A stretch of 64,000 bases of DNA from Sinohyriopsis cumingii (taxonomy: Eukaryota > Mollusca > Bivalvia > Unionida > Unionidae): NCBI GenBank assembly GCA_028554795.2, contig CM068828.1, positions 11,428,314-11,492,313 of the forward strand. The letters are read 5' to 3'. Positions 7,289 through 36,119 of the stretch are shown here, piece after piece. Each line of letters begins with the position of its first letter. The stretch's first letter is position 1. The translations under genes and the position numbers were made by a program. A model generated the notes under the pieces. The model worked only from the letters and a program-made list of their open reading frames with translations, was not told the DNA's origin and made no database searches.

Positions 7289-7344
7289 AGCTATGTAAAT
7301 ATTTTAGGATTTCTGTTGTGAATTAAAAATTTAAGTTAACAATA

Positions 7345-8456: not shown

Positions 8457-8476
8457 AGAAATAACAATTGAATAAA

Positions 8477-8911
8477 ATGATGGTACACAATTCTCAACGT
8501 AGACCAGTCATGGTCAGAGTGGTAAATTCACGACTACCAGTATACAGGATGACTTATGGAAACGGATTCGGCGATGTTGTTACGGGTTTATTTGCGGGAA
8601 TGGCACCTAAAGCAATACCGATCGCAAAACAATTAGGCATGAAAGCCATTGATGTTATTAAAGATAAAGCTATTGGCGCTGCTGGTAGCGCTGCCGGTAA
8701 AGCATTCACGGCGATCAAGGACAGACTAGTACGACTGATACGCAGAAAACCTCCACCGGTAAAATTACCAGCCACCGCAGACATGTCAGCGGATGTCAGT
8801 AAAGTAATAAACGAAGCCGCAAATCAAAGGCTAGCTGCGCTAGTCAACGAAATTCCTGAACAAATAAACACGAGTTTGGTCGCGGGAAGTGGTCTTCGTT
8901 TTAGACGATAA
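8477..8911 (+). CDS. Small basic protein with Gly/Ala-rich amphipathic segment
   Basis: About 144 residues; start chosen at the ATG of AATAAAATG (8471-8479). A basic N-terminus precedes GNGFGDVVTGLFAGMAPK and the AIGAAGSAAGKAF stretch, then a basic RLIRRKPPP segment and a C-terminal LVAGSGLRFRR. This is reminiscent of membrane-active minor capsid peptides such as adenovirus pVI, but that is a resemblance in character only. It ends 13 bases before the capsid gene and is conserved intact in element 2. Confidence 0.65.
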   Translation: MMVHNSQRRPVMVRVVNSRLPVYRMTYGNGFGDVVTGLFAGMAPKAIPIAKQLGMKAIDVIKDKAIGAAGSAAGKAFTAIKDRLVRLIRRKPPPVKLPATADMSADVSKVINEAANQRLAALVNEIPEQINTSLVAGSGLRFRR

Positions 8912-8924
8912 CTTTTACAATAAA

Positions 8925-10307: not shown

Positions 10308-10336
10308 ACAATTAGATCAATATCGTATTAAATAAA

Positions 10337-10807
10337 ATGTCATACAGTCATGTTAATGTCACACTGACTCCTGGTCAGGTGAAGAAATTACAATCGAAGA
10401 ACGCGAGCACATGTGGGACATCAATAACACTAAAACACGATCAGCTAGCGGGCGGTCCAAACAAACTGTCATTGACTAAAACCCAACAAAAACATTTCAA
10501 TAAAGCGAAACAAGCAACGACTGGAGTTCGACTTGATCTCTCTCCAGCCGCGGTCAAAGATATGGTCAAAAAAACCGGCGGAATACTTCCATTTCTTCCA
10601 ATAATTGCCGCAGCACTAGCACCAGCAGCAGCCGCAGCAGCAAAGGCAGCCGCGTTAGGAGCTGTTGGAACCGCAGCTGGAATGGCACTAAAGAAAGCCA
10701 CCGGGAAAGGACACAAAAAAAGGGATCCGGTCTCAGACTTCCAGGAACTCCGGCGTCATGGTACCCAAAAAAGTTCTAAGTGTTTTTACACCGATGTCCA
10801 ATTTTGA
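10337..10807 (+). CDS. Alanine-rich, lysine-rich core-like peptide precursor
   Basis: Up to 156 residues, starting at the ATG of AATAAAATG. The N-terminal half has an LTPGQVKKLQSKNAS and LSLTKTQQKHFNKAKQ pattern. Then comes a hydrophobic GGILPFLPIIAAAL segment, a run of alanines and a basic ALKKATGKGHKK tail. This resembles pX/pVI-like DNA-binding or membrane-active precursors of adenoviruses and Polintons. The last ~17 codons overlap the protease gene in another frame. In element 2 the tail reads straight into the protease frame, so the junction (A7 here, A6 there near 10717) is a frame-sensitive spot. Confidence 0.68.
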   Translation: MSYSHVNVTLTPGQVKKLQSKNASTCGTSITLKHDQLAGGPNKLSLTKTQQKHFNKAKQATTGVRLDLSPAAVKDMVKKTGGILPFLPIIAAALAPAAAAAAKAAALGAVGTAAGMALKKATGKGHKKRDPVSDFQELRRHGTQKSSKCFYTDVQF

Positions 10808-11216
10808 TTTGCTTGATGCTGTTAAACAATTACGTATAAAGAATTTCAGAGGTGTATTTATGCGAGATGAATTACCAGCACGACCGAATAGCACAGAAAC
10901 CGGTATTATTAACCTCGACAACAAGGAAGGTCCTGGAACTCACTGGGTTGCTTACGCGATCGATCCACGTGGAATTATCTATTTTGACTCGTACGGGCTA
11001 GCACCGCCAGTTGAATTTTTCAGGTACGTCCAAAGATTTTCCAACATTCCAGTTTGGCAGTCAACGTTACCAACACAAACACTGATTGATCCTCCGATAT
11101 GCGGTCGTGAAGTATTAAATGTTCTTGATGCAATCTCAAAATCATTGAGTTCTCCTCACAAAGTCGTGCATGAATACACCACAGATGTGATTTCCAAATT
11201 TAAACAACCCCCATAA
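10758..11216 (+). CDS. Adenain-like maturation cysteine protease
   Basis: 152 residues. It would cleave capsid precursors during virion maturation. The expected catalytic set is visible in order: His62 in GPGTHWVAY, Asp77 in IYFDSYG, Gln107 in LPTQTL and Cys115 in PPICGREVLNVLD, the His/acid/Gln/Cys layout of adenovirus protease (C5 family). Length is slightly below the roughly 200 residues of adenain. The ATG at 10758 lies inside the 3' end of the preceding gene; element 2 uses the same start. Confidence 0.88.
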   Translation: MVPKKVLSVFTPMSNFDLLDAVKQLRIKNFRGVFMRDELPARPNSTETGIINLDNKEGPGTHWVAYAIDPRGIIYFDSYGLAPPVEFFRYVQRFSNIPVWQSTLPTQTLIDPPICGREVLNVLDAISKSLSSPHKVVHEYTTDVISKFKQPP

Positions 11217-11222
11217 CTAATA

Positions 11223-12230
11223 ATGGTTGATATTTACGGAAGGTCAAGCAGAGCAAGGGAGGAAAAAAAAGATATCGATTTATCAGCGTATGTGACCAAA
11301 GATGAAATTGATGATCTTTAAAATCTGACCGGGATAGACCCAGATGAGGTTGTTATTTTTCAGGACAGGCACGGCAAACTAAAAACCAGTAACATTAAGT
11401 GGAATGACATAATTCTCAGAGTTATTGGAGCTACCACGGACAACATCGTTGTATTCACTGACAGCGGCAGAATCAGAGATTCGTTGATATCAATCGCGGC
11501 GCTTCGAGATGATGCACAGAAAGCCGCCCGGTTACGTGTAGCAAAGACCGGTGATACAATGACGGGTGAACTCAGTATGAACGGTAACAAAATAACTGTG
11601 TTAGCGAATCTGGAAGGTCCCGAAGATGCCGCAAATAAACAATACGTAGACACCATTGACGGTAAACTAGACACGTTGCGGGAAGAGTATGATGATCACA
11701 TAAAAGCGTTTACAAATCTCCGTAGAAATTTTAGAAAAACTGATGAGGCCGTGGATAAGTTCTTTGGGGTTCCTCCGGTCATCGACATGAAACTTTCTGA
11801 AATCAAGACCGACATTGACACGATCAAACAAACACAGCAAGATATCGCATCGGGGATTCCTGAGATCGTTAACAAAACCAGTCTGATTAAAGTCCCCACT
11901 GGAGTTACTCCCGGGCATATCACCAACATAGTCTACAATGTATCATCGGGATTCGCAACATGGTCCCGACAAAATAATACTATCAAATATATAGCAACAG
12001 CCACTGGCGTGTATAGACTGTCTGTGTTTTCCGCCGCTAAATTTGAAATCTTCACAACATATCCCTGGAGACATTCCACCGATAAGTATTCCGGGGTTGT
12101 AACTATAATACTAAACAGCGGAACCGAAGAAATATTTATACTTGAAGCCGCAGACAAGAAATTAACCGCAACATCTTACTGGTGGTGTTTGGAATTCGTC
12201 GCAGAAACACCTCAATTGGTTACGTTGTGA
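11223..12230 (+). CDS. Tail-fibre-like attachment protein, one in-frame stop
   Basis: The gene starts at ATG 11223, just after the protease stop, and has TAA at 11319-11321 where element 2 reads Leu. From there the frame is open to 12230. Around residues 109-144 lies the phage-fibre pattern GDTMTGELSMNGNKI...DAANKQYVD, then a helical shaft rich in Asp/Lys/Ile (DTLREEYDDHIKAF and following). A beta-rich C-terminal head follows (ATGVYRLSVF, SGVVTIILNSGTEE, YWWCLEFV), like trimeric TNF/C1q-type knobs. A receptor-binding fibre is the natural reading; the head fold is inferred. Confidence 0.72.
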
Positions 12231-12255
12231 TTTAGTCACAACGTAAATTAATAAA

Positions 12256-12841
12256 ATGAAATCAGCATCAACGACAACATTAGATGCTCAGCAATATAGA
12301 TACGATCAGGTACGCGAATGGCAGTCAACGTTGAAAAACACTATTGACAAATGCGTAACAAAGATAAAAAAATACAAACGGCGTGTAACTGTGCTAGACA
12401 CAATAGTGTATTCGGTATCCGCGGTAGTTGCATCCACGGGTGTGCTATTGTCTGCGTTAACTCCGGTAACGACCGCAATCGCGATCACAATCACAATTTC
12501 AGCATCAACGACGATTGCAGGAGTTGCTAATATAATTGCAAAAAAAAATATCCTCGTGCGCGATAACAAAATTACACGAGTATGAGCGGCTAAACAACGC
12601 GGCCAACAACGCCTACTCGAAATTGTCCTCGTTGATATCATCCAGCCTTGACGATACAACAATATCAGATTCTGAATTCACGTTGATCGCAGCAGCATAC
12701 AGCGATTACGAGCGCACAAGTAATTTTAATTTGAAAACGATGAAGATAAATAATGACGGAGATACTTCAAGAGATAGCCGCGAATACAGCTCCGGTAAAA
12801 ACATCAATGATAACAATATCTTCGACGCAGCCAGAGTTTAA
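12256..12841 (+). CDS. Two-TM membrane protein with helical tail, split by A-run frame break
   Basis: Starts at the ATG of AATAAAATG. Residues 1-45 are charged and helical, residues 46-68 and 71-95 are hydrophobic (VLDTIVYSVSAVVASTGVLL and VTTAIAITITISASTTIAGV). At the A9 run (12540-12548) the frame is lost, and the helical tail (KLHEYERLN, SKLSSLISSSL, TISDSEF) continues in the +1 frame. In element 2 the same tail is reached by the opposite shift at an A6 run, so an eight-A ancestor would have been one ORF of about 190 residues. The tail overlaps the penton-like gene start. Envelope or host-membrane function is unknown. Confidence 0.62.
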
Positions 12842-14177
12842 TATTAATTTTCCAACTGCAATTCCAGTAAGCGAAATCGCGTTGGCACAGTTACGAGTAT
12901 ATCACAGTTGGCCCAATATCAGGTCGACATCATTTCACGGACAATCGCCGAATAATTCATTTGTATTTTCATATCACAATGAACCTGACGGCACACCAGA
13001 TTGGAACGTCATTGCGTTACCCACTGGGAGTTATCAGATCGAAGAAATCAACAAAGAAATACAGCGTCAAATGAAGCGTGTCACCGGAAAAGAATCAAAG
13101 ATCAATATATCAGCACACGAGCCAACGTTGTCCACGATCATCGAAATCTCAACACCGGGTTACCACGTAGACATTTATAACAGTTCAATCAGAACAGTAT
13201 TAGGATGGCCAGAAAATCCACCGCAGACAGCACCGATACTACCAGCACCCGAAAAGTCTGATTACGTAACTGACGCGCAGTCATATCACACAATTACACC
13301 GTCATACAAAACACAACTGGATGTTCTAAAAAGTGTAGGGGCGGTTGGTATCTGGATTTCCTCCTCTAAAGATGGCAGCGATATTGAGTGGAATATTTTA
13401 AACCCAAGACGGGGGGCGGGTGAAGGTTTGACAATTATTGTTCGTCCAAGCGAAATTAATGAATTTTTTAAAATTATTAATGTGTCGCACCGAGCACAAC
13501 TGGCGCATCTACGGCAACGCTTCCAAGAACATGTATCCTCGGTGACAGGTTCACGTGAAGAAATTATTAAACGAATTGAGACATTAAATCATATTGCCGC
13601 AGATATGGAATATTATAACCAGCGAATGATTCGGGTAGTAATTGACAGTAAACCCAGCGATAAACGAATATTTCTAAATAAGTACTCGCTGACCGAAGCT
13701 GAACTTGCGAATTTTAAATTACCAGGATACGTTTCCCCGGTCATCTTACGAAAACACGTCACTGATATCATCGATGAATACTTCCCGGATATCCTTGACC
13801 AGTACAAGCGAACACTACCAGAACCTGTTATCCTCAGACATGACAATTCCACAGCGAGCGATGGCAGACATATTTCTCCGGGCATCGTAAATATCACTGA
13901 TGTCGTCGCGGTCAATCTTGTGTGTGACGTAATCGACGGTAGTTACAACATAGACACGACAACATCGAATCAAGCCCAGCAAGGGTTTATACTGTATTCA
14001 TTTACTCCTAAAGAACCACCTGGATTTTTGATTGTGCAAGAGCCAATCAATCCAGTATTTCTGTGGTGTTTGAGTCCAACGCTGACAAGGATGAATTTTA
14101 AAGTCACTGACCAACAGGGTAGACTTTTGGACCTACGTGGCGAGACGGTTAGTATTAATTTGCTGGTAAAATCTTAA
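12753..14177 (+). CDS. Penton/minor capsid-like protein
   Basis: 474 residues, intact. The N-terminus carries IALAQLRVYHSWPNI and, near residues 90-100, GSYQIEEINKEIQRQ. The C-terminal 95 residues (VNLVCDVIDGSY, GFILYSFTPKEPPGFLIV, TDQQGRLLDLRGETVSINLL) form the beta-rich block typical of Polinton/adintovirus minor capsid (penton-like single jelly-roll) proteins. The start at 12753 lies inside the preceding gene, as in element 2. It would sit at capsid vertices. Assignment rests on pattern memory and gene context. Confidence 0.68.
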   Translation: MTEILQEIAANTAPVKTSMITISSTQPEFNINFPTAIPVSEIALAQLRVYHSWPNIRSTSFHGQSPNNSFVFSYHNEPDGTPDWNVIALPTGSYQIEEINKEIQRQMKRVTGKESKINISAHEPTLSTIIEISTPGYHVDIYNSSIRTVLGWPENPPQTAPILPAPEKSDYVTDAQSYHTITPSYKTQLDVLKSVGAVGIWISSSKDGSDIEWNILNPRRGAGEGLTIIVRPSEINEFFKIINVSHRAQLAHLRQRFQEHVSSVTGSREEIIKRIETLNHIAADMEYYNQRMIRVVIDSKPSDKRIFLNKYSLTEAELANFKLPGYVSPVILRKHVTDIIDEYFPDILDQYKRTLPEPVILRHDNSTASDGRHISPGIVNITDVVAVNLVCDVIDGSYNIDTTTSNQAQQGFILYSFTPKEPPGFLIVQEPINPVFLWCLSPTLTRMNFKVTDQQGRLLDLRGETVSINLLVKS

Positions 14178-14205
14178 GACTTTCAATTAGCGATATCATT
14201 ATCAT

Positions 14206-14505
14206 ATGATGTCCAAAAAATCTTCGAATTACCAGAAGTATGATGATGATGATGATGAAACACAAAGTGTTTGTGAATCACAAAGTGATTCTGACAGTTC
14301 TGACGCTAGCGTAGAAACACAATATGTTTGTGAATCACAAAGTGATTCTGACAGTGATTTTGTTGTCAGTGATGACGAAGATGAAAATGTCTCCGACATT
14401 TCCACTGACAGTGATTTCGCTGACAACGACGACGACGACGATGATAGCACCGTCAGCGACATCACCATCAGCGACAGCACTGTCGTAATAAATTATATTA
14501 AATGA
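14206..14505 (+). CDS. Acidic Ser/Asp-rich protein, absent from element 2
   Basis: 99 residues, mostly Asp, Ser, Glu and Val, with an internal duplication of CESQSDSDS (two copies about 23 residues apart). It has no predicted globular part. It follows the penton-like gene in element 1, but the matching place in element 2 has only noncoding repeats. It may be a histone-mimic or DNA-displacing acidic protein, or simple-sequence drift; function is not known. Confidence 0.5.
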   Translation: MMSKKSSNYQKYDDDDDETQSVCESQSDSDSSDASVETQYVCESQSDSDSDFVVSDDEDENVSDISTDSDFADNDDDDDDSTVSDITISDSTVVINYIK

Positions 14506-14521
14506 ACGCGAAAATAATAGT

Positions 14522-14785
14522 ATGTATCAGCACGTGAAATGTTTAATACACAACAAAAGCGCGCTTGAAGAATTCATCCAAAAAATATTTACCGGAAATC
14601 ATTTCCCGGGCGTTGTTAAAATAATCATCGATAAGTACGGCAATGATGATTTTTTACTGACAGATTTTCAGCTGAAGCAACTCCGCGAAAACAATATCAC
14701 GATGATTACTTGTGACACAGACCAAATCCTCAATGTTGTTCACTCGTGCATTTCACGGGATCATCTCGATAAGATACTTCAGTAG
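14522..14785 (+). CDS. Small conserved protein (MYxHVKC family), unknown function
   Basis: 87 residues starting MYQHVKCLIHNK, with a central IDKYGNDDFLLTDFQLKQL motif and a C-terminal DTDQILNVVHSCIS. Element 2 has an open homologue at 41921 and a second broken tandem copy beside it. Conservation of the YGNDDF block across all three copies argues for a real protein. I do not recognise the family. Confidence 0.6.
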   Translation: MYQHVKCLIHNKSALEEFIQKIFTGNHFPGVVKIIIDKYGNDDFLLTDFQLKQLRENNITMITCDTDQILNVVHSCISRDHLDKILQ

Positions 14786-15102
14786 AAATGTTTTTGACAT
14801 TTCCATCCTTTAGGATTTTTAAAAATGTCTTTAAAAATATTTTACTTTGTATATATTTTTTTTACCACTGACAATTTCGCTGATTTTCATAGGGTATTTG
14901 CTAGTAAAAACCAGAGAAACATTCCAAAGTCACAGATTCATAGGGGTATTTTGCTATGAAAATCAGAGAAATCGTCCATTTTCCTTGATTTGATAGGGTA
15001 TTTTGCTATGAAAACAAACGAAATCGGACAGTTGCATAATTTACACAGTAAAAAAAAATATTACTTTTTTTTTACTTTCGATTTCACTTCCAAGTAATAC
15101 AA
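14786..15102. repeat. AT-rich intergenic region with ~57-bp degenerate repeats
   Basis: About three units of the type ATAGGGTATTTTGCTATGAAAA followed by CAGAGAAATCGTCC lie at 14886-15030. They lie between the rightward late block and a leftward gene, i.e. between converging transcripts. A longer version with ~52-bp units occurs in element 2 at 41380-41850. Confidence 0.65.
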
Positions 15103-15543
15103 TCAAGGTGAGGTATTTACTTCCTCGTGAATGACTTCGTCATCCGTGACGAAGCTATCATTGCTTTCTAAATTCTCTGGATTTTCATCCTTGACGCTTT
15201 CAAGGGACATACAATGCTTTAATTTTCTGACCCGATTATTAATTATCTTCTTTGTTTCATACTCGGCTGCCAGTGCCAGCCTGATCTTTTCGATTGCACG
15301 AGACAGTGGAACAAATTCATTTATTTGTGCCTCCGCTACGCTGGCTAGCGATTTATACAAATTATTTTGGATCATCTTTATGAATCGATATTGAGCAGGA
15401 AGAATATAACGCCCTGCGCATTTAGCTTCGTATAATGATTCAAAATCTGACAGAATAGTTTCAACATTTAGTAATATTTTAAATCCTTGTTTTTCTAATT
15501 TTTTAATAGCATCAATCACATTATTGATATTTTCTCGATTCAT
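15103..15543 (-). CDS. Conserved helical protein of unknown function
   Basis: 146 residues from the ATG at 15543 (MNRENINN), which matches the element 2 start; an upstream in-frame ATG would add 14 residues. Mostly helical with AKCAGRYILPAQYRF and a Lys/Arg-rich VRKLKHCMS, then an acidic tail. The core is over 80 percent alike in element 2, where the N-terminus is broken. No known domain recognised. First gene of the leftward central block. Confidence 0.55.
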   Translation of the reverse strand: MNRENINNVIDAIKKLEKQGFKILLNVETILSDFESLYEAKCAGRYILPAQYRFIKMIQNNLYKSLASVAEAQINEFVPLSRAIEKIRLALAAEYETKKIINNRVRKLKHCMSLESVKDENPENLESNDSFVTDDEVIHEEVNTSP

Positions 15544-15610
15544 ATTTATGTATATTTTTATATCTTTAAAATAAAAAAACATCACATCTCCTTTGAGTCT
15601 CTAGGGTGTC

Positions 15611-15793
15611 TTATGACATCCTACCAAACTCAGGAGGGAGCGGAAACACTACCCCCATATGAGCTCCTAAACTGCCAAATAACAGTCTAGAAAGCCCAGA
15701 GGGTGTGTTTGCGAACGACGAGACATTCCCCATTTGTGAACCTCCTAGCTTACCATTTGATATGCTAGCAAGGCTCATATAGGGACAACACAT
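15611..15793 (-). CDS. Possible 60-residue Gly/Ser-rich peptide in a conserved block
   Basis: A short leftward frame containing QMGNVSSFANTPSGLSRLLF and GAHMGVVFP. Element 2 (42979-43165) keeps the same frame with mostly conservative changes in this core. The DNA here is also highly conserved, so it could instead be a noncoding RNA or regulatory block. Confidence 0.35.
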   Translation of the reverse strand: MCCPYMSLASISNGKLGGSQMGNVSSFANTPSGLSRLLFGSLGAHMGVVFPLPPEFGRMS

Positions 15794-16050
15794 AACATGT
15801 AGTATTTACATCTGTAAAGCTTCTAAATTGCCACCGCATTTTAACAAGCTTACACAGTATTAGAACTTATCTTAAGACGGCACAAACATGTAGTATTTAC
15901 AATATTTACAGCAGTTGTGTTTTACAATTGTATATATAACTTATCCTAGGACGGTACAAACATATAACTTAATTCTAGCTTATCTTAAGACGGCACAAAC
16001 ATATAACTTATCCTAGGACGGTACAAACATAATGCGGGGTTATAATTCTA
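15794..16050. repeat. Iteron-like short repeats in central noncoding region
   Basis: Two motif families recur. TAGTATTTACA occurs near 15799 and 15890, with further TTTACA copies. ACTTATCCTAGGACGGTACA alternates with CTTATCTTAAGACGGCACA near 15870, 15940, 15978 and 16008. The same motifs occur in element 2 at 43170-43450. They lie next to the large hairpin and could be binding sites for a replication or transcription factor. Confidence 0.6.
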
Positions 16051-16053
16051 CAT

Positions 16054-16168
16054 CCAACAAGTTGCACACCCACCCCGGAAATCAACCCTGTTTTGGGGTA
16101 AAAGGTTACCCCGGAACGGGGGCGATAACGGAGAAAAGTTGTGCAACTTCGTTGGGTTTCGAAACCCC
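16054..16168. other. Large hairpin plus adjacent palindrome: candidate origin or regulatory site
   Basis: Arms CCAACAAGTTGCACA (16054-16068) and TGTGCAACTTCGTTGG (16140-16155) pair with one bulge. Between them are GC-rich blocks including GGGGTAAAAGGTTACCCC. The perfect 14-bp palindrome GGGTTTCGAAACCC follows at 16154-16167, then TATATAA near 16192. Element 2 has the same arrangement at 43464-43583 with different arm sequences. Confidence 0.6.
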
Positions 16169-16191
16169 AATATGATATCAGGACGATATTG

Positions 16192-16198
16192 TATATAA
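16192..16198 (+). promoter_or_regulatory. TATA-like box downstream of the hairpin
   Basis: TATATAA, followed by ACTGACTGATAC, which is conserved in element 2 where a TATTTAA takes its place. The transcript would run rightward through the 16286 micro-ORF. Confidence 0.4.
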
Positions 16199-16285
16199 AC
16201 TGACTGATACCCGAAAGTTCAGAAATAGCTCAGCGTGATTTGTTTAAAACGTATTTTCTTAAATATTATCGTGTGGAAACCACAG

Positions 16286-16312
16286 ATGAGCCATAAACCC
16301 GAACAAGTGTAA
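16286..16312 (+). CDS. Eight-codon micro-ORF with overlapping poly(A) signal
   Basis: MSHKPEQV then TAA, directly overlapping AATAAA (TAATAAAA). Element 2 has MNHKTEQV, stop and AATAAA at 43712-43738. Flanking DNA is less conserved. It could be the last exon of a spliced gene, a leader peptide, or chance within a conserved RNA. Confidence 0.25.
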   Translation: MSHKPEQV

Positions 16313-16564
16313 TAAAATAGTGATATTGTCTGTGAAAAAAAAAGATAAATACACGTTTGCCTGATAAAATCCAGAAGATAAAATCATTCTTGCGCTGTCA
16401 CCTTGATAGCGTCAAGGGAAGTTATTTACTTCCTTGTGCAGAAAATCGTCTGCTCGTACCTGTCACCTTGACTTGTCAAGGGGAAAATAATTGTATCATT
16501 GATTTTCACAGAGTCGCTGCAGAGTTATCTCCGTTGGAAAATTCTCTCGATTACAGTAAATTAC
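16313..16564. other. Noncoding spacer with short palindromes
   Basis: An open frame here starts only at TTG and is not conserved in element 2, so I do not call a gene. The spacer holds CACCTTGATAGCGTCAAGG and CACCTTGACTTGTCAAGG, members of the dispersed mini-palindrome family. Confidence 0.5.
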
Positions 16565-17059
16565 CTAACAATAATGAAATATAATTTTCTGATTATTATA
16601 TGTTTTTGACAACGCGGATTTGTTTATTTTTTCTGCGACTCTTCGTACGGAAGCCCTACAAATACCAAAATGCTTGCCAGCTGCATATGTCGATTGAAAT
16701 TCTCTCTCTTCATTCGTATTTAAATTTATAGATACAACCTTCTTGGCTCTTTTATTGTTATAGCCAGCATTCCCAGCCCTACAATTTTCACTCTGCGTCA
16801 CTGCTCTCAGATTGGATAAATTATTATTAAGTTTATTATTATCCTTGTGATCAATTACAAGACCGTCTTTGATTTTTCCAAAGAAACATTCGAACACGAA
16901 CTTGTGGTTATAATAGTTTTTACCTCCAGCATTAAATCGGAGATAACCAGCATTATTAACAACACCAACTGGTTTTTTCAATCTGCTATTTCTAACTATT
17001 CCCTCGCGAGATGCTTCATAATTCTTGATTGTGGGATGTGAGACAAATTCTTGATTCAT
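16565..17059 (-). CDS. HNH homing-type endonuclease with NUMOD-like DNA-binding region
   Basis: 164 residues. N-terminal NUMOD4-like part (HPTIKNYEASREGIVRN), HNH core with GLVIDHKDNNKLNNN near residues 67-80 and LSNLRAVTQSENC, and a NUMOD1-like C-terminal helix-turn-helix (FQSTYAAGKHFGICRASVRR). It would make a site-specific DNA cut. It stands as a free gene, not in an intron. Element 2 keeps an intact copy although many of its neighbours are broken. The ATTTGTCT-containing upstream DNA is conserved. Confidence 0.85.
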   Translation of the reverse strand: MNQEFVSHPTIKNYEASREGIVRNSRLKKPVGVVNNAGYLRFNAGGKNYYNHKFVFECFFGKIKDGLVIDHKDNNKLNNNLSNLRAVTQSENCRAGNAGYNNKRAKKVVSINLNTNEEREFQSTYAAGKHFGICRASVRRVAEKINKSALSKTYNNQKIIFHYC

Positions 17060-17100
17060 TTATATAATAATATATTTGTCTAATTTATAATTTGTCTGAA
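17060..17100 (-). promoter_or_regulatory. Conserved upstream region of the HNH gene with ATTTGTCT motifs
   Basis: ATATTTGTCTAATTTATAAT followed by TTGTCT lies just upstream of the start and is nearly identical in element 2 (44594-44640). TTTGTCTTA also occurs in the 17369-17415 promoter, suggesting a shared control motif for the central genes. Confidence 0.45.
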
Positions 17101-17158
17101 AACCTAGTTATATAATCACTTTCGGATTTTAGCGCGTCTCCGTTATTTTTTTTTTATT

Positions 17159-17368
17159 TTAATATCGCTTGAGTTCACGGTATCGTTTCCCCCCACACCC
17201 CGCACATAATTGTATTTTACCCCTGACACCAATGCCACATCGCAGGCAGCGAATAGGTCCTGTGCTTCCTCGTTTGATGCTCTGTATATGTTCACCGCAG
17301 AATTCTTTCCTGCAGGGCTTACCACAGACTGTTACGGATCCAACTTTTAACCATTTGCAGTTGTTCAT
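17159..17368 (-). CDS. Small Cys-rich zinc-binding protein
   Basis: 69 residues with eight Cys and one His: C4, C15, C19 and C24 followed by GEH, then two CxxC pairs (CLRCG and CAGCG). It likely binds two zinc ions. It is transcribed away from the polymerase-helicase gene from a 47-bp shared promoter. The element 2 copy has lost its frame after CLRC. Function is not known. Confidence 0.6.
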   Translation of the reverse strand: MNNCKWLKVGSVTVCGKPCRKEFCGEHIQSIKRGSTGPIRCLRCGIGVRGKIQLCAGCGGKRYRELKRY

Positions 17369-17415
17369 TGTATATATAATATTTTCTTATTTAAATATTT
17401 GTCTTAAATATAATA
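17369..17415. promoter_or_regulatory. Divergent promoter between zinc protein and polymerase-helicase
   Basis: This 47-bp spacer is almost unchanged in element 2 (44900-44945): TATATATAATATTTTCTTAT then TTAAATATTTGTCTTA. Its TATA-like ends face both ways. Confidence 0.6.
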
Positions 17416-20400
17416 ATGGAGGAGTTTTCGAAATTATTCGCAGTTGGCGCTGGGAGATTCGATCTTGACAGGCTAAACCCGGATCCACGACGACGGCATC
17501 TAACTGATCTGCTTAATATTATCAACGAGGGTAAAAAAGAATTTCGCGACGACGGAGCTTCTCATGCATGGTCGACATTTAAAATTATCCGTGAGAGTTC
17601 CGGAGATATCTTTGAGGATCTTTTCGGGGAAAATGTCATCGACGGCACAATGACCGATGCGCGCGCGGGCAACATTGTTAAATATCTTGATGATAAAAAA
17701 TATTATATTCTGATAAAATTTATCGTCGGTGTCGTCGATGAAACCGGCGAAGATATGTGGATTATCCGTGATAAACTTGACCCTGTTCTTGCTAACGGAA
17801 AGACCGCTCTGCTAAGTAGCAATTCCAAACCAGGAATGCTGACCGGGATTGATAAACCATATTACGCTCGAGCATATCCTGTAACCGCAGTCATTTATGG
17901 AATATATCCGGTAAAAAAACCAAAAATTGATAAACTCACCCCGATGCGAATGACTGCGTCATTTACTTCGACGGTGTTAAATTGTGTAGCCGAGCGAGTA
18001 ATGGAACATTTTAAAAACGCAAAACGAGGGAATGGTTTAACCGACCTGCGACGTGAAAAAATAACATCATGGGGTGAATCGGTTAAGAATACCGGGGCAA
18101 CAATAAATGATGTTGCTGCGCTATCAAGTAAATTAAAATGCTCAATAATAGTAAAAACACTAACCGGGGAAATATTATACAGTTCGAAGCATTATAAAAA
18201 GTCAGGAACACCGATTGAAATTATTGATTCGCACGCGTGGACTGATGCGGTTACAATATTTCCACGAGACCGTGTTGTCAAGTTTTATTCTGGAAACATA
18301 TACGAGGTTATTTACGCGCTGAGTAAAACCGACCCTGTGTCAGTGTGGTTATTTAGGAGCTCTGAAGATTCAGAGTATGATCAATTTGTGAGACCCAACG
18401 GAGAATTATACAGAACAGAATCGTTGCAACAACAAATGAAAAAACTCGCAAAAACGTATATGAGAAATGCTAGCGATGAGCAGTTATTGGTTAATTGTTT
18501 TACAGTTCCAAGTGTTGCCGCTCACGCCGCCAGAGAAAGAAATTCGTGGAGACCAACCCGAAGTCAGTTTCTCTCGGATATACAGTTAAGTTGTGTCGAG
18601 TATGGTCATGGCGGGTTATGGAATACCCGATATGACTACCGGGATATGATTTCCGTGGATATGATTGCCTGCTACCCAGGAAGCTTTCTCGGGAACGGCG
18701 AGTGTCGCGAATACTTTGCGCGGTTTGGACACCCCACGAACTCGATGACACGAGTCGCCGTAAACGGCGTTTTACCCGACGCTGATTTGACAGGATTTTC
18801 TCGTGTGACTTCGTTTGTATTCGCCACGGGACTTCATCCGATTTGTTATGTTTGGTTTGGCAGACACTTCGTCGAAAAGCGCTGGGTACCAATAGTGTTA
18901 TTGCGATACATGCTTGACAGCGGCATACTGGTATCGTTGACTGTCAGCGAAGCAATCATATGTTATCGACCGCAGACCTCAGTTTGGTTGCCAACACCGG
19001 AGCGTGTAACTCTCGAAGAAGTTATCGGCGAGTATGCACGAGAGTATCCAAATACCCCGATGGATGTCATCGTCAGTGAGGCTCCTAAAATTCTCAAGAT
19101 TAAACTCAAAAACAGTGAAAGCACAGCGAAAGATCTTGGACGAAGAATAATCGGTAAATTTGCTCAGGGTGCAGCATTTGATCATAAAATGCATCACTCG
19201 CGGTTGATTATCGATGAAGCTGAATTGGATTTTATAATCGCCGACGCGGTTGCCAGAGACATATTTTGTAACAGGGAGGATGTGTTCTTGTCCGACGGGA
19301 AAAAATTGGGCACAATTGTAAGTTATATCGACGGAGAATCGCCTCAATACACACATTTGAGATCTTCAATGCTGGCTTATGTTTCTATAAATTTGTTATC
19401 GATGGTAAATCGATTTCCTGACCCATACCATACTGGTATGGCAGTAAGAGTTGCCACGGATTCATTTTATATCGACAAGAAATATTCAGAATCACTGACC
19501 GATATAATGAAATTCTGCGGCGGAGATGAATGGGGTTCGTGGAGAATAAAAGTGGAGATGTTACACGAGTATTGTGAATCCGCTGATGTTGCAATCGAGG
19601 ATGATTATTATAAATCCGAGATGCCAGAAATATCTTCCGCACCGTCTGTGGATGATCCAATCACCAGACATAAAACTGTTTATTTAAACGGGCCGGGATG
19701 GTCTGGTAAAACAACTCGAGCGATTGAATTATTTCGAAAATCAGATATGATTGTGCTAACACCCACACACAGACTTGCCAGAGAGATGAAACAGCGAGGA
19801 GTCAATTCTTGTACTTATCACAGCTTTTTCAAATATAGCGGCGGTGTATGGACGTCAGATCGAATGGGCACAAAATATATCAATGATATAATAATTTGGG
19901 ATGAGATATGTACGTTAAAAACATTTCTTGATTGGCTGTTAACGAAAAATGCTGCAGTGATTATGTGCGGCGATCACGGTCAACCACCTCCGTTTGTCGG
20001 CGCATCTTCGCATAATTGGCTGAGGAATTTTGTTGATTATCACGAAGAAGTGTCTGATGATTACCGAGCACTTGATGAAACATTGAAAGAATTTAAAACA
20101 CTAATCAGGCTACAACCGAATAAAATTCAATGTGAAATTATGCGCGAGATGATTCCTGAAACTTCGATGAGCGACTTTTTACGCGTGTGGAAACCAGACG
20201 ATTTGATAGTGGCAAGTAGAAAGATAGTCAGAGACACACTTCAACAACAGCTATTTCAGTTACAACAAGAAAAGTTTCCAATGCTGCCAACGCCGTTATG
20301 TTATAGACCAACTGATACACGGTTACAAAATATAGATGTTGATATTCCAGGAAAGACAGAGAAACAGAATTTAGTATTGAATGATATTGTGTTAGTTGAC

Positions 20401-20697
20401 ATCGATGCTGTCGAGGATGCACTAGCGATGAATAAATCTCCGTGGACGCTAGGATACGCAATGACCATTCATTGTTCTCAAGGACTGACTATTTCAGATA
20501 CAACTGTCTGGATCATTGATGATCGAATCGAATGGTCAAACTTAGTCTACTTAGCTGTGTCCAGAGTCAGAAAAATATCTCAACTGCGAAGAATTGTCTT
20601 GAATGAATCAAACGCTGATAAAATTAATAATGAAAACAACAGCAACATAATAAGAAAAAAACTCGCCGGTTACAAACAGAGTGACAAAAAAAAATAA
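17416..20697 (+). CDS. Divergent PolB-like palm fused to SF1 (Pif1/RecD-like) helicase
   Basis: 1093 residues, intact. Residues 1-370 have no recognised domain. The polymerase part has motif A SVDMIACYPGSF (Asp415), a motif B-like RRIIGKFAQG (Lys581) followed by SSMLAYVSINLL, and motif C VRVATDSFYI (TDS 681-683), the order of family B palms. No DFE-type exonuclease motif is seen by eye. The helicase part has Walker A GPGWSGKTT (759-767), PTHRLAREM, Walker B IIIWDEIC (Asp829-Glu830), GDHGQPPPFVG (852-862), YAMTIHCSQGLT (motif V) and LAVSRVR (motif VI). One protein would unwind and copy the element. The helicase call is firm; the PolB call is inferred from motif order. It stands where a Polinton would carry protein-primed PolB. 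Confidence 0.82.
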   Translation: MEEFSKLFAVGAGRFDLDRLNPDPRRRHLTDLLNIINEGKKEFRDDGASHAWSTFKIIRESSGDIFEDLFGENVIDGTMTDARAGNIVKYLDDKKYYILIKFIVGVVDETGEDMWIIRDKLDPVLANGKTALLSSNSKPGMLTGIDKPYYARAYPVTAVIYGIYPVKKPKIDKLTPMRMTASFTSTVLNCVAERVMEHFKNAKRGNGLTDLRREKITSWGESVKNTGATINDVAALSSKLKCSIIVKTLTGEILYSSKHYKKSGTPIEIIDSHAWTDAVTIFPRDRVVKFYSGNIYEVIYALSKTDPVSVWLFRSSEDSEYDQFVRPNGELYRTESLQQQMKKLAKTYMRNASDEQLLVNCFTVPSVAAHAARERNSWRPTRSQFLSDIQLSCVEYGHGGLWNTRYDYRDMISVDMIACYPGSFLGNGECREYFARFGHPTNSMTRVAVNGVLPDADLTGFSRVTSFVFATGLHPICYVWFGRHFVEKRWVPIVLLRYMLDSGILVSLTVSEAIICYRPQTSVWLPTPERVTLEEVIGEYAREYPNTPMDVIVSEAPKILKIKLKNSESTAKDLGRRIIGKFAQGAAFDHKMHHSRLIIDEAELDFIIADAVARDIFCNREDVFLSDGKKLGTIVSYIDGESPQYTHLRSSMLAYVSINLLSMVNRFPDPYHTGMAVRVATDSFYIDKKYSESLTDIMKFCGGDEWGSWRIKVEMLHEYCESADVAIEDDYYKSEMPEISSAPSVDDPITRHKTVYLNGPGWSGKTTRAIELFRKSDMIVLTPTHRLAREMKQRGVNSCTYHSFFKYSGGVWTSDRMGTKYINDIIIWDEICTLKTFLDWLLTKNAAVIMCGDHGQPPPFVGASSHNWLRNFVDYHEEVSDDYRALDETLKEFKTLIRLQPNKIQCEIMREMIPETSMSDFLRVWKPDDLIVASRKIVRDTLQQQLFQLQQEKFPMLPTPLCYRPTDTRLQNIDVDIPGKTEKQNLVLNDIVLVDIDAVEDALAMNKSPWTLGYAMTIHCSQGLTISDTTVWIIDDRIEWSNLVYLAVSRVRKISQLRRIVLNESNADKINNENNSNIIRKKLAGYKQSDKKK

Positions 20698-20917
20698 TCG
20701 CGATTTTGATCTTGATGTTGACTTCGTTGTTGCGCTGAAACAACAACAGAATAATCACTGCGCGAGCTGTAATTGTATAATGCTATGGCAGTATTCGAAT
20801 AAAAATTCAAGACAATTTACCGTAGATAGAAAAGATAACAGTCGCGGTCATACACGTGATAATGTCATGTTGACCTGTCTTGAGTGTAATCGACGTCGGG
20901 GTACCAGCGCTAGTTAA
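20681..20917 (+). CDS. Small HNH/zinc-type domain, probably C-terminal extension of the helicase
   Basis: No ATG is available; the frame opens inside the A9 run (20686-20694) at the end of the helicase gene. Visible motifs are CASCNCIMLW, FTVDRKDNSRGHTRDNV and LTCLECNRRRG, the CxxC...D-R-K-D-N...CxxC layout of compact HNH nucleases. With eight or eleven A residues the domain would be fused in frame to the helicase. The element 2 copy has ten A and an added TGA in place of Trp. It may be reached by frameshifting or slippage, or the break may be a mutation or assembly error. Confidence 0.6.
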   Translation: MTKKNNRDFDLDVDFVVALKQQQNNHCASCNCIMLWQYSNKNSRQFTVDRKDNSRGHTRDNVMLTCLECNRRRGTSAS

Positions 20918-20927
20918 GTGATCGAAA

Positions 20928-21874
20928 TCACTTCAGTGATTTTGGCGGCAATTGTGTGTCCTCGGGAATTACCTGAAGTTGCTCACGGGTGAATCCACGT
21001 TGAGGAGCAGTTGAATCTAATCTATAGATTGCTGGTCTGCCAGTGGATCTTGTCACGGTGGATATCTTGTGTGTGGTACCACTCCAAATGGGATCAGTCG
21101 CTCTTCGTTTACCACCTTCAAGTTCACCTGGTTCATATAAATATCTTACAGTAACATTACCCAGTATTTGCTGTTTTTCTTTCGTTGTAGTGGTATATTT
21201 TTTTTCGTGATCGCGATGGAAGGTTTCATGTTGGTTGTTCGAGTTATTTCATTATTTAGCGCAGTTATCACGCTTGGTAATCTTGCAACCCATTCGCGCG
21301 ATCTCGTATCCTGAATAAATTCCTTCGCGTATTGATATCCAAATAACCGCTCAGCAAGTGTTCGATTGAATCGCTCAACAATTGCCTGATCACGGTGAAT
21401 TTCAGTGTGTCCTCGTCGTATGGTGACGTTATGTTGTTTCATCAACGATGATACCGCACCTTGAAATTCTTTGCCAGGATCAACTTGTAATAAATTTGGC
21501 CAACGTAGACCACCTCGCCGATAAATTCTTTCAAACGCAGAAGCAACCTCAGATGCTGTTTTAGCCGTTAACGGTTCCGCATCTTTGTATCTACTGGCAA
21601 CATCAACTATGGTTAACGCGTACTTGTATGTACGTCTTCGGATAGTATCATGTGGCAGAAATAATATATCAGCTTGATGAACCTCATTTGGTACACTAAC
21701 ATCAAAATGCGCGAAGTGAATTTGTTTAGGGTGTGGTAGATAAATTTGCCATATTGCCTGTCGGGATAACCAATTTTTGGCAGTAACCGCCGTAACTTTT
21801 GCTGCACTGGCAAGTTTACTGATTGCCGCGTTACCTCTCCAATATCCGCTTGGGGAATAATAAATCGACTCCAT
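20928..21874 (-). CDS. Retrovirus-type DDE integrase (frame break before C-terminal domain)
   Basis: It would insert the element and generate the short target duplication. An N-terminal helical part (WRGNAAISKLASAAK, ..KNWLSRQAIWQIY) is followed by a catalytic core with Asp69 (HQADILF), Asp132 (LLQVDPGKEF) and Glu167 (AIVERFNRTL), spacing D-D34-E. The SH3-like C-terminus VRYLYEPGELEGGKRRATDP and RGFTREQLQVIPEDT is in another frame beyond an A8 run (T-run at 21198-21205 on the plus strand). Element 2 breaks at the same run. The family matches C. elegans F54H12.3-type Polinton integrases. Its ATG overlaps the PLA2 stop as TAATG. Confidence 0.88.
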
Positions 21875-22269
21875 TATATATCAGCACCTAGTGCTAATTT
21901 ACCTTTCATTGCGGATTTTATCAACCAGGATGCTAACTTTTTTTTGAAAGATTTATCAGGGATGGCATTTAACGCATGAATTAATTTCACATCCGCGAGA
22001 TGGCGCTGTTGTAAATCCTTGCTTCGGTAAGCTACATCATGAGCATGGCACGCGCTATCAATAGCGTTTATCGGATACTCACCGGGTTTTGGTTGATCTT
22101 GGTCATCAAGTCTGATATCAAGTCGGGTTCCAGGACCACAGTAATTATATCCTGGAAGATGTTTTTCTCCTGGGTATTTAGCCCACGGTGTTCCTGGCAG
22201 CGCTGTTAACTTGGCTGCGATATCACCTCCTTTTTTTTTATTAATAAATCTAAATTTTTTGTGCCACAT
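21874..22269 (-). CDS. Phospholipase A2-like protein (parvovirus VP1u type)
   Basis: Around residue 43 the calcium loop YCGPGTRLD and at residues 74-80 the catalytic CHAHDVA (His77-Asp78) are the two signatures of secreted and parvoviral PLA2. WAKYPGEKHLPG precedes them, as in parvovirus VP1 unique regions and PLA2 proteins of Polinton-like elements. It would breach an endosomal membrane during entry. The nominal start MWHKKFRF is in fact the frame-shifted tail of the zinc ribbon at 22206-22373, so I infer an ancestral zinc-ribbon-PLA2 fusion. A hydrophobic/basic tail WLIKSAMKGKLALGA ends the protein. Confidence 0.82.
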   Translation of the reverse strand: MWHKKFRFINKKKGGDIAAKLTALPGTPWAKYPGEKHLPGYNYCGPGTRLDIRLDDQDQPKPGEYPINAIDSACHAHDVAYRSKDLQQRHLADVKLIHALNAIPDKSFKKKLASWLIKSAMKGKLALGADI

Positions 22270-22373
22270 CGTTCACACTTACCTGTAAGCGCTTGTCGAT
22301 TATTTTTTGTTGTAATTGTTGTTGTATCCGTAGTTGGGGTATGTGCTCGGCATTTCACACAATATAAATCCAT
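22206..22373 (-). CDS. Zinc-ribbon domain (DUF5679-like)
   Basis: Starts at ATG 22373 with MDLYCVKCRAHTPT, then NNRQALTGKCERCGTKN: two CxxC pairs 27 residues apart, a compact zinc ribbon. One A missing in the run at 22255-22260 (T-run on the plus strand) puts the PLA2 gene in another frame; restoring it would give one continuous protein. The divergent ATPase gene starts 21 bp away. Confidence 0.68.
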   Translation of the reverse strand: MDLYCVKCRAHTPTTDTTTITTKNNRQALTGKCERCGTKNLDLLIKKKEVISQPS

Positions 22374-22769
22374 ATTTATTTTATGATATATTAAATGGAA
22401 ATCACTGATTTTTCTGCGACAAAGCGACGAGAGCCAATCAAACATAACTCAGCGCTACCAAATTCTATTCGAATGATTATCATAGGTCCATCTGGGTCGG
22501 GTAAGACACAGTTGTTACTTAATTTAATAATGAAGTGGATGAAGTGGGATAAATTATATTTGATAGCCCCGTCTGTGGACGATCAGCGATGTTATCAAGT
22601 GCTAAAAGATTTTAACGAAAGTGCAAAATCGATAATGGAAAATCAAAGTGATTTTCACGAAGATGTTATTGATTTTATAACCGATATCAATGAAGCACCG
22701 AGTATCGATGATATTGATGGGAGTATTAATAATTTAGTCGTGTACGATGATATCATGCTGGACAAACAA

Positions 22770-25169
22770 CACTGGACAACAAATTTTTACAAAAGTCATG
22801 TTACTGAAATAAAATTAGTCAATTCTTATCAATTTTTATGTGCTGAACACGAATATGACAGTCAAATTGCAAAATTGGCTCTAGTTTTTTTGTAATCTGC
22901 AAGAAATTAATGTTTACATAACGAAATGCATTCCAATAGTAAAAGGTCAACTGTAATAGCCTACCTATAAAAAATCAAGTCATTGACTACATCTTAGATT
23001 TCTTCGCCTGTCTCTTGTACAGCTGTTCGGGAGCATCTCTGAGGAGTGTCCAGCAGTAGTCAGCCAGCATTGTAGTGGACCATTTTCCCTGGTATCTTTG
23101 TTCCATTGTTGTGATATCTTGATGAAAACGTTCGCCGTGTTCATCACTAACAATACCACAGTTGCTAGGAAAGAAATCCAAATGGGAATGAAGGAAGTGA
23201 ATCTTTAGAGACATATTGCAGCCAAGTTTCTTATACTTCATCAACATGTCTTCTACTAGTTCCTTATAGTTTTCTGCCCTAACATTTCCGAGGAAGTTTG
23301 TAGAAACTAGGCGAAAAGCATTCCATGCTTGTTTCGCGTCACCTTCCAGCAAGTTGTTGAACCGGTCATCTTTGAAAAGCTCTCGAATCTGAGGACCCAC
23401 AAAAACTCCCTCTTTAATCTTTGCTTCGCTGAGTCGAGGGAATTTTTCATGCAGGTATCGGAATGCTGGCAAAGTCCGGTCAATGGCTTTCACGAAGTTC
23501 TTCATCAAACCTAGTTTGATGTGAAGGGGTGGTAGCAAGATTTTCTGAGCCTCAACCAGAGCTGGGTGTTGGATATTCTTCTCTCCAATGGCTACATTCT
23601 GCCTGTGAGTCCATTCCTTCCTCATGTAGTGCATTTCCCTTGCTCGGCTATCCCACTCGCATAAGAAACACATGTATTTTGTATATCCTTGCTGCAGTCC
23701 CATTAAAAGGGCAACTACCTTCAAATCACCACAGAGGTGCCAGCTGTACTTGTTATACTCAATGGAATTCAGTAGCTGCCTTAAGTTATCGTATGTCTCT
23801 TTCATGTGGACAGCATACGCTACTGGAATAGATGGAAGAATGTTTCCATTGTGCAAAAGCACAGCCTTGAGACTCAGTTTCGAAGAGTCCACAAACAGTC
23901 TCCATTCTTGTGGGTCATGAGTGATTTTTAAAGCATTCATGAGGCCCTCAATATCGGAACAGAATATCAGATTACTTTCCTTTCTGAAGAAAGGCTCCAA
24001 TTGCTGGTGGCGCTTTCGATATGCAGTAATTGTGACATCTTCTTCTAGAAGATTCCATTGTTGGAGTCTTGATCCTAGCAATTCTGCCTTGTTCTTTGAT
24101 AAGTCCAAATCACGAATCAGGTCATTTAGTTCTTCCTGTGTTATTCTGTGTGGGGTTGATGATGCACCACAGTGAAAATCTGGATCACTGCATGCTGATG
24201 GACCAGGAGAAGAACAGGTCGACTCACCTTTGTCTTCGTCAGATGAATCAAGAGAATATTCTGCTGGAGGTTCTGGAATAGGAAGTCCCTCACCATGTGG
24301 AACTGGTCTCAATGCAGACGGAATGTTTGGGTAGACTATTCTCGACTTCTTTCGCTTCGTTATTCCGCCGGAAAGAGGAGGAACCAAGCAGAAGTAACAG
24401 TCATTTAGGTGGTTGCTTGGCTCTCTCCACACCATTGGGACTGCAAACGGCATTGATGACCTTTTGCAATTCAACCACTGTGAAAGCTGTGTTGTACATG
24501 TAGCACAGCATATATGCGGAGCCCAAGGCTTGTCTTGGTCACCAACCTTGCATCCGAAGTAAAGATGATATGCCTTCTTCACTTGAGAATTGATACTTTT
24601 CTTCTGGTTGGCAAATGCCACTTCCCCACAAATATAGCAAAAATTGTCCGCGGTATTAACACACTTTCGAGGCATTACTGTTCTTTATTGTACGTAAATG
24701 GATAAAATAATAAGTTTTATGTAACAGTAGCTTGAACTGTCTCGCACAACGTCTAAAATATTTTAAATGCTGAACCTATCTGATTGGGCTTTATATAGTA
24801 CACTGCTTACGTCAGCTTCAGCAGCCGCCTGGCATTAGTATAATAGGCCTACACATGTATAGTACACTGCTGACGTCAACTTACTTCAGCAGCCGCATGG
24901 CATTAGTATTGCATTGCATCAGAAAATGATGCAATCAACTGTGGATGATGTGAGCATGATGGTATTATGCAATGTTACATCATTATTCCGGATGTTGCTG
25001 CAGTCCTACTGGAGAAATTTACACAGTGAAACATAGAAAATGAGGTATATGAATATCTTCAAAACGAGAGCCAATACAAATTTTTCACGGTTATATTCGT
25101 GTTCGGCACACCAAAATACTACAGATTAGGGCCTTTTCAAGTCAGTAATGATTTCACTGTTGACCAGTG
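22770..25169. mobile_element. Chapaev3/CMC-type DNA transposon in the ATPase gene
   Basis: The 2400-bp insertion begins CACTGGACAACA and ends with the complement of CACTGGTCAACA. Imperfect TIRs continue for about 120 bp (shared GAACACGAATAT and TTGGCTCT blocks). It is flanked by a 3-bp duplication CAA (22767-22769 and 25170-25172); element 2 shows the empty site. CACTG ends and 3-bp duplications fit the CMC (CACTA-Mirage-Chapaev) group. Confidence 0.88.
22987..24675 (-). CDS. Chapaev3-like transposase, intact
   Basis: 562 residues. The N-terminal part has paired CxxC motifs (FCYICGEV, HICCATC, CYFC), a likely zinc-binding DNA-recognition region. The middle and C-terminus (LIFCSDIEGLMNAL, EWRLFVDSSKLSLKAVLLHN, YMCFLCEWDSR, DEHGERFHQDI) match a widespread animal transposase family I associate with Chapaev3. 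Acidic catalytic residues are probably in CSDIEG or FVDSSK, CGDLKV and the late DEHGE, but I cannot assign them firmly. The full-length frame suggests recent activity. Confidence 0.75.
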   Translation of the reverse strand: MPRKCVNTADNFCYICGEVAFANQKKSINSQVKKAYHLYFGCKVGDQDKPWAPHICCATCTTQLSQWLNCKRSSMPFAVPMVWREPSNHLNDCYFCLVPPLSGGITKRKKSRIVYPNIPSALRPVPHGEGLPIPEPPAEYSLDSSDEDKGESTCSSPGPSACSDPDFHCGASSTPHRITQEELNDLIRDLDLSKNKAELLGSRLQQWNLLEEDVTITAYRKRHQQLEPFFRKESNLIFCSDIEGLMNALKITHDPQEWRLFVDSSKLSLKAVLLHNGNILPSIPVAYAVHMKETYDNLRQLLNSIEYNKYSWHLCGDLKVVALLMGLQQGYTKYMCFLCEWDSRAREMHYMRKEWTHRQNVAIGEKNIQHPALVEAQKILLPPLHIKLGLMKNFVKAIDRTLPAFRYLHEKFPRLSEAKIKEGVFVGPQIRELFKDDRFNNLLEGDAKQAWNAFRLVSTNFLGNVRAENYKELVEDMLMKYKKLGCNMSLKIHFLHSHLDFFPSNCGIVSDEHGERFHQDITTMEQRYQGKWSTTMLADYCWTLLRDAPEQLYKRQAKKSKM

Positions 25170-25503
25170 CAATCAAACCCTGCCAGGATATTTTCCCGCG
25201 GCAGGCATAAAAACACCGATGTGATTTATGTAACTCAACGGTATACACAAATTCCGAAAGTGATCAGAGATAACTGTAACGTTCTTGCGGTATTTAACGG
25301 CGTTGACGCACACACGCTACAAAATATTCATAGGACTTGGTGCAGCGGAGACATGGATATGAATAAATTCAAAAATTTCTTCAGTCATGCTCAGGCAAAC
25401 CCACACGGGTTTGTGACGATAAATTTACATGATCCTCGGACACGATACCGAGTTGGGTTAGACACATTTTTTAACTAAAAATCCTAAAATATTTTACATC
25501 GCT

Positions 25504-25737
25504 AGCAGCAGAGAGACTGGGCCCACAACGTTTTCGTCGACGTCACCACGTGAAGAAATATTTTTCATAGTGAGTTATCTTTGTCGAAATAACCCTTCTA
25601 GCCAGAAAAGAGGACTTAGTCATCATAGTTTCTGAATAGAAGGGTTATTTTTGTGAAATAAGAACTTCTATCAGAAAAGTTTTCGATAGATGGTCCTGTT
25701 GGACGAAATAGTTGGTGGGCCCAGTCTCTCTGCTGCT
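25504..25737 (-). repeat. Right terminal inverted repeat of element 1
   Basis: Reverse complement of 7055-7288 with very few changes and the same 234-bp length. It begins 25 bases after the stop of the ATPase gene. Confidence 0.95.
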
Positions 25738-34902: not shown

Positions 34903-34930
34903 GTAAATTAAAAATTTTCAGTTAACAATA

Positions 34931-35660: not shown

Positions 35661-35677
35661 ATAACTAATTAAATAAA

Positions 35678-36106: not shown

Positions 36107-36119
36107 CTTCTATAATAAA

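Follow-up and report, generated by a model that had tools for sequence, protein, structure and literature searches.

A polinton-like element of the bivalve Sinohyriopsis cumingii encoding a probable Tlr1-like replication protein with a PolB-type palm and an SF1 helicase

The stretch of DNA analysed here (the window) comprises 64,000 nucleotides of contig CM068828.1 of the bivalve Sinohyriopsis cumingii (assembly GCA_028554795.2, positions 11,428,314 to 11,492,313 of the forward strand) and carries two polinton-like elements, named element 1 and element 2, and pieces of a third one, element 3. Within element 1, positions 17416–20697 of the plus strand form a single, intact open reading frame (ORF) of 1093 codons. 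It encodes the subject of this work, a replication protein of 1093 amino acids which combines a terminal-protein-like domain, an OTU-type domain (both predicted), the palm of a protein-primed family B DNA polymerase (pPolB) and a superfamily 1 (SF1) helicase, abbreviated S1H within the fusion. A copy of the gene in element 2 (44886–48251, plus strand) is broken by stops and frame changes. An earlier note on this DNA, made from the letters alone, had described an intact 1093-codon ORF with palm and helicase motifs, and this holds: the frame is open throughout and every quoted motif is present, i.e., palm motifs A, B (RRIIGKFAQG) and C (ATDSFY) and the helicase motifs GPGWSGKTT, IIWDEIC, GDHGQPPP, TIHCSQGLT and LAVSRVR. 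In motif C, which reads ATDS, the first Asp of DTDS is missing. The joining of a PolB-type palm and an SF1 helicase in one polinton-like replication protein, likewise claimed in the note, was confirmed by the location of both in the same ORF.

Comparison of the ORF with the copy in element 2 gave a ratio of nonsynonymous to synonymous substitution rates (dN/dS) of 0.21 in frame and of 0.94 and 1.27 in the two alternative frames (1035 of the 1093 codons were comparable, 58 were not; codons with stops were skipped). By segment, the ratio amounted to 0.33 (residues 1–165), 0.19 (166–300), 0.14 (301–370), 0.22 (371–730, palm) and 0.16 (740–1093, helicase). Purifying selection is thus observed across the whole length of the protein. 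A chance ORF is ruled out by these values between the copies, and a fusion through assembly error by the 47 relatives which were obtained from a protein search with the ORF product, 24 of which cover at least 89% of the ORF.

The reading of residues 370–730 as a polymerase palm was put to a structure-model check and stood: residues 283–725 match phi29 polymerase with a high score, and residues 743–1061 match Pif1/RecD2, also with a high score. The pPolB palm is placed at residues 386–725 (18571–19590, plus strand) with D415 in motif A, K581 in motif B and A680-T681-D682-S683 as motif C, and is followed within the same protein by the C-terminal SF1 helicase core of the Pif1/RecD2 type (residues 743–1061; 19642–20598, plus strand). 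The palm assignment rests on motifs and fold, because no Pfam polymerase family was matched by the window protein (P0001), or by enough of its relatives to rank with their 25 most frequent families. An Asp at position 680 is found in none of the 46 covering rows (window protein included), while D415 (45 of 45) and D682 (46 of 46) are invariant.

Residues 14–167 (17455–17916, plus strand) are predicted to form a terminal-protein domain of the little-finger/PAD (LF/PAD) kind with the order beta-alpha-beta-beta-alpha-beta. Counted by title, Y-family LF/PAD rows account for 15 of the 18 structure matches listed for this part; the fold scores are low, and the model suggests a resemblance to PRD1-type terminal proteins. 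In a PRD1-like terminal protein a Ser or Tyr near Gly or Pro is expected between the second helix and the last strand, and Y154-P155, with Tyr154 as candidate priming residue, sits in exactly this loop; of 35 covering rows, 33 have the Tyr and 32 the Pro. For residues 168–290 (17917–18285, plus strand) the model suggests the fold of an OTU-type cysteine protease, again with low scores; Cys190 and His273 are present in every covering row. Ceg23, Gumby, otubain as “ubiquitin protease”, plant virus proteases and 2oh2 were filed as OTU-type or Y-family partly according to what we take them to be. The earlier note had allowed for a priming or an exonuclease domain in residues 1–370. The former was borne out as a prediction with weak fold scores, the latter is unlikely, because the terminal-protein-like and OTU-like domains seem to occupy residues 14–290, and a whole exonuclease within residues 1–370 was rejected on this ground. 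The approximately 95 residues between the OTU-type domain and the palm (291–385), in which no search for exonuclease motifs was made and which lie behind the start of the phi29 match at model residue 283, would hardly accommodate a whole exonuclease domain.

In a viral structure library the first match was H6WBE3 (999 amino acids, E 5.5e-24, 1212 columns with gaps), obtained as a flexible alignment with a TM score of 0.23 and a root mean square deviation of 29.9; we suspect this entry to be a transpoviron protein, as yet unconfirmed. The pPolB of mavirus followed at rank 4 (E 5.0e-11, TM score 0.20), and the remaining listed rows are mostly helicases.

Directly after the stop, positions 20699–20917 (plus strand) contain an HNH-like coding stretch which is out of frame with the ORF and C-terminal in many relatives. 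Two CxxC pairs together with DR, GH and N make up a pattern which was judged HNH-like by eye; it is shared by 26 of 48 rows and absent from the window protein. Matches to Pfam HNH are weak (12 of 48 members, best E 0.023). The junction between helicase and HNH stretch (20680–20920; about 48190–48260 in element 2) is located at a run of A, the length of which differs between the copies, and is out of frame in both. Between the copies the proportions of nonsynonymous (pN) and synonymous (pS) differences are 0.053 and 0.326 in the stretch’s own frame, and pN 0.103 and 0.138 with pS 0.114 and 0.052 in the other frames (71 codons; 2 of 73 set aside for stops). Since pN lies far below pS in its own frame, selection must have acted on the stretch until recently. 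We considered whether a programmed frame change leads into it; because the relatives carry the stretch in frame and the run of A differs in length, later damage or a sequencing error is the simpler explanation.

Fusions of this kind are already published. The passages of PMC11071308 on which our statements about the family are based describe pPolB-S1H proteins from polinton-like viruses, Tetrahymena Tlr1 and transpovirons, and cite Krupovic, Yutin and Koonin (2016) on the Tlr1-like ones. In the Tlr1-like helicases the palm is combined with S1H, an OTU-type protease precedes the palm and motif C is devoid of its first Asp; the terminal-protein domain is variable, but PRD1-like in TvV-S1 and probably also in the ancestor, and some members end in an HNH or GIY-YIG domain. 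A protein-primed palm with TPR1 and TPR2 also counts as a feature of the family. In the published scenario the exonuclease was lost and S1H gained (PMC11071308). Judged by these descriptions, the window protein fits the family as far as compared: the palm is followed by S1H in one protein, the predicted OTU-type domain stands before the palm with its catalytic Cys and His retained, motif C is without the first Asp while motif A is kept, and the HNH-like pattern, out of frame in the window copy, is seen in 26 of 48 rows. The claim that the fusion represents a possibly unpublished lineage therefore largely does not hold. What the earlier note had named as evidence against itself, a family already in print which unites this fusion with these genes, largely exists; Tlr1 itself shares the rve integrase, the ATPase and the capsid, but is said to be without the protease. 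The notion of a “replaced or rebuilt” replication gene agrees with the published loss of the exonuclease and gain of S1H, but the element looks like a further member of the family and not like a separate invention.

We consider it very probable that the ORF encodes a Tlr1-like pPolB-S1H replication protein of a polinton-like element, with a predicted primer domain, a predicted OTU-type protease, and a palm and an SF1 helicase which would copy the linear element from its ends. There Tyr154 would accept the first nucleotide, and the OTU-type domain would cut between the first two domains and free the primer domain. The palm would be active although the first Asp of motif C is missing, and together with the helicase, which may compensate for the missing exonuclease, it would copy the strand without proofreading. 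Copies would then be inserted by the rve integrase with a 5-bp target duplication.

Element 1 extends from 7055 to 25737 (18.7 kb) and ends in terminal inverted repeats (TIRs) of 258 bp with 255 matches (left 7055–7312, right 25479–25737); its flanking 5-bp repeats CAATA/CAGTA are equal at four of five places. Element 2 lies at about 34535–50983, with TIRs of approximately 381 bp (34536–34916 and 50600–50982; 367 matches over 383 columns) and exact flanks (GCCTT/GCCTT). Visual inspection gave the ends and the flanking repeats, and the TIR lengths were taken from the alignment. TIRs, target duplication (four of five places in element 1), rve integrase, double jelly-roll (DJR) capsid and A32/FtsK ATPase characterize a polinton-like integrating element, whereas the polinton feature of a replication protein without a fused helicase is absent, S1H being part of the same ORF. 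Near its inner edge, every TIR repeats its own outer end in inverted orientation, once in element 1 and twice in element 2; an 11-base end motif has ten occurrences in the window, all inside the four TIRs. Through these copies the displaced strand may acquire a double-stranded priming end; alternatively, they may be repeated integrase sites. In the literature passages found on related elements there is no mention of inverted outer-end copies or hairpins within TIRs.

The further genes of element 1 encode the DJR major capsid protein (8889–10307, plus strand; PF21738, E 7.9e-20), a weak adenain-like cysteine protease (10758–11216, plus strand; PF00770, E 0.0068, below the cut-off), a possible minor capsid (penton) protein (12753–14177, plus strand; no Pfam match), which is a guess by eye from motifs, an rve-type integrase core (21146–21874, minus strand; PF00665, E 2.6e-8) and the N-terminal part of an A32-type packaging ATPase (22395–22895, plus strand; PF04665, E 3.6e-7), the gene of which was likely split by an insert. 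A segment of 2.4 kb in this ATPase region (22770–25169) has no counterpart in element 2; it contains an ORF of 562 amino acids (22987–24675, minus strand) without a Pfam match at E 1 and is probably another transposon, its edges being approximate. Genes for DJR capsid, rve integrase and A32-type ATPase are present in both elements, and the adenain-like match was noted in element 1. The two elements are collinear with 73–86% identity over the longer aligned stretches outside the TIRs. Between the copies, pN/pS values are 0.08/0.26 for the capsid, 0.13/0.39 for the protease, 0.05/0.32 for the integrase, 0.20/0.49 for the possible minor capsid and 0.17/0.45 for a free HNH_3 gene. Because these gene pairs show the same selection pattern as the replication gene, both elements seem to descend from working elements.

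Each element harbors one free-standing HNH_3/NUMOD1 homing endonuclease gene (16565–17059 and 44102–44593, both minus strand). Repeats spaced by approximately 50–52 bp lie between the capsid and replication genes (14884–15017 and 41431–41846), with more copies in element 2. Element 3 (53592–57345) carries a polinton-type pPolB in pieces with DTDS in motif C and a fragment of an FtsK/A32-type ATPase. Adjoining element 2 on the outside is a histone 3′ untranslated region stem-loop (34377–34421, minus strand), the sole Rfam match at gathering level; a tRNA scan of the window found none. Reverse transcriptases and CA repeats are also present in the window; in view of these retroelements, the microsatellites and the histone stem-loop, a bacterial origin was rejected. 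PHROGs gave tail-fibre-like stretches within 11484–12230 and otherwise little for small ORFs.

Among the matches listed, named relatives of the replication protein come from molluscs, i.e., the mussel Sinanodonta woodiana and the sea slugs Elysia marginata and E. crispata, and from the arbuscular mycorrhizal fungi Diversispora, Cetraspora, Gigaspora, Racocetra, Ambispora and Rhizophagus. Metagenome-assembled genomes (MAGs) of Thiodiazotropha, two of them labelled from the lucinid clams Monitilora and Lucinoma, also matched and are read as host DNA; one additional relative derived from EukProt. Beyond the 47 relatives of the first search, the best 120 of 121 matches were taken from a search with a profile of palm and helicase (A3), for which the 7997 candidates sharing most words were scored. 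It added named molluscs and more fungi and, among the matches listed, reached no Tlr1 or transpoviron protein. No relative was detected in IMG/VR, searched with the window protein and alignment A1, or in a phage collection; from a genome collection came a single 3-kb contig (L001), which is assigned to an archaeal MAG and was not used further. Alignment A2 combines the window piece with 33 of the 47 relatives (34 rows), and the 100% of P0033 in it, which covers few columns, is meaningless. For the capsid 28 relatives were found, which include Sinanodonta woodiana and Potamilus streckersoni as the named animals. The tree comprises 53 of 166 protein records, picked for coverage or name, is rooted on Rhizophagus and has SH-aLRT as its only support. 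In this tree, the window protein and both Sinanodonta rows belong to a group of seven rows (SH-aLRT 100), outside of which the fungal rows lie; one of the Sinanodonta rows has a long branch. Two Sinanodonta rows and one MAG row fill less than half of the kept columns, and the branches of Sinanodonta_2 and Rhizophagus are long.

Instead of descending from the Tlr1-like family, the protein might have arisen independently by convergence, with a polinton pPolB and an unrelated SF1 helicase being joined in a mollusc/fungal lineage. The searches gave no sequence link to any named Tlr1-like, TvV-S1 or transpoviron protein, and a fusion in reversed order from Oxyrrhis (helicase SF1-pPolB, 2025), held to be independent, is already published (PMC12721341, in the passages found). 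Convergence would, however, have to account for the same domain order, the apparent loss of the exonuclease, the missing Asp in motif C and the habit of carrying a C-terminal endonuclease, and the long first match to H6WBE3, though no rigid superposition, points away from it as well; we regard it as improbable. A second alternative is that the palm is a dead relic in a protein acting as helicase only, with a host or helper polymerase replicating the element. The Asp missing in all 46 covering rows speaks for such a relic, and according to PMC11071308 the authors of 2016 initially took the Tlr1-like palms as inactive. We nevertheless think this unlikely in view of the dN/dS of the palm between the copies, of the invariant D415 and D682, and of mavirus, pipolin and some other PolBs, which are without the same Asp and said to be active (PMC11071308).

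Finally, the N-terminal region might not be a terminal protein, and the ends might be replicated otherwise, e.g., by self-priming of hairpin-forming TIRs. The first 234 nt of the left TIR of element 1 are predicted to fold into a hairpin of -59.4 kcal/mol, far better than shuffles (-20.0, standard deviation 3.3; z -11.8; 0 of 200 shuffles as good), and that of element 2 is weaker (z -5.1); the low scores of the terminal-protein fold point in the same direction. Against this stand the predominance of Y-family LF/PAD rows, the published topology and the conserved Tyr-Pro in the expected loop, and a Rep-type nickase was not seen among the scanned ORFs, so that we give self-priming little credence and retain a protein-primed, Tlr1-like replicase as the preferred reading.

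Protein and element are of a known kind; the novelty, as far as seen, lies in the hosts and in a terminal-protein domain, apparently the ancestral one, which accompanies an rve integrase. The literature search found no report of the fusion in molluscs, which is weak evidence of absence, as subscription papers are mostly outside its coverage. The range of the protein, which in the sources consulted covers viruses of protists, a transposon of a ciliate and plasmids of giant viruses, is hereby extended to molluscs and arbuscular mycorrhizal fungi. A seemingly ancestral terminal-protein domain combined with an integrase of the polinton type belongs, in the published scenario, to the step from polintons to polinton-like viruses, and the intact protein offers a test case for priming, self-cleavage and the activity of a palm whose motif C reads ATDS. 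More speculatively, and with considerable doubt, the elements could be a distinct animal/fungal branch of the polymerase-helicase polintoviruses which retains the ancestral order of terminal protein, OTU and palm as well as the integrase and capsid genes of polintons. They would be a living intermediate between exonuclease-bearing polintons and the derived Tlr1/transpoviron replicases, and their TIR hairpins would make the protein-primed origin double-stranded on the displaced single strand.

Among the known systems, the polinton-like virus of Oxyrrhis marina also has an SF1 helicase and a pPolB in one protein, but the helicase comes first, the exonuclease is complete and a tyrosine recombinase takes the place of the rve integrase (PMC12721341). 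Polintons and adintoviruses, represented by element 3, share rve integrase, DJR capsid, A32/FtsK ATPase and TIRs and differ by a pPolB with exonuclease and no fused helicase (PMC11071308); element 3 itself shows DNA_pol_B_2 matches and DTDS in motif C. The pPolB of the virophage mavirus has the arrangement terminal protein-vOTU-palm without most of the exonuclease and a motif C without the first Asp, whereas its superfamily 3 helicase is encoded by a separate gene (PMC11071308). For TvV-S1, a virus of marine algae and likened here by description, the Tlr1-like helicase is described as containing a genuine PRD1-like terminal-protein domain (PMC11071308). Tlr1 has another domain at the place of the terminal protein (PMC11071308), where a PRD1-like one is predicted here. 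It shares the rve integrase, the ATPase and the DJR capsid and is said to lack the adenain-like protease, to which element 1 has a weak match. With the Tlr1-like pPolB-S1H proteins as a family, the window protein shares the palm followed by S1H, a predicted OTU-type domain which precedes the palm and retains Cys and His, and the motif C without its first Asp; the family has no exonuclease domain, and a whole one would hardly fit here. Some members of the family carry a C-terminal homing endonuclease (HNH or GIY-YIG), to which the HNH-like pattern in many relatives corresponds. The named relatives of the window protein belong to molluscs and arbuscular mycorrhizal fungi.
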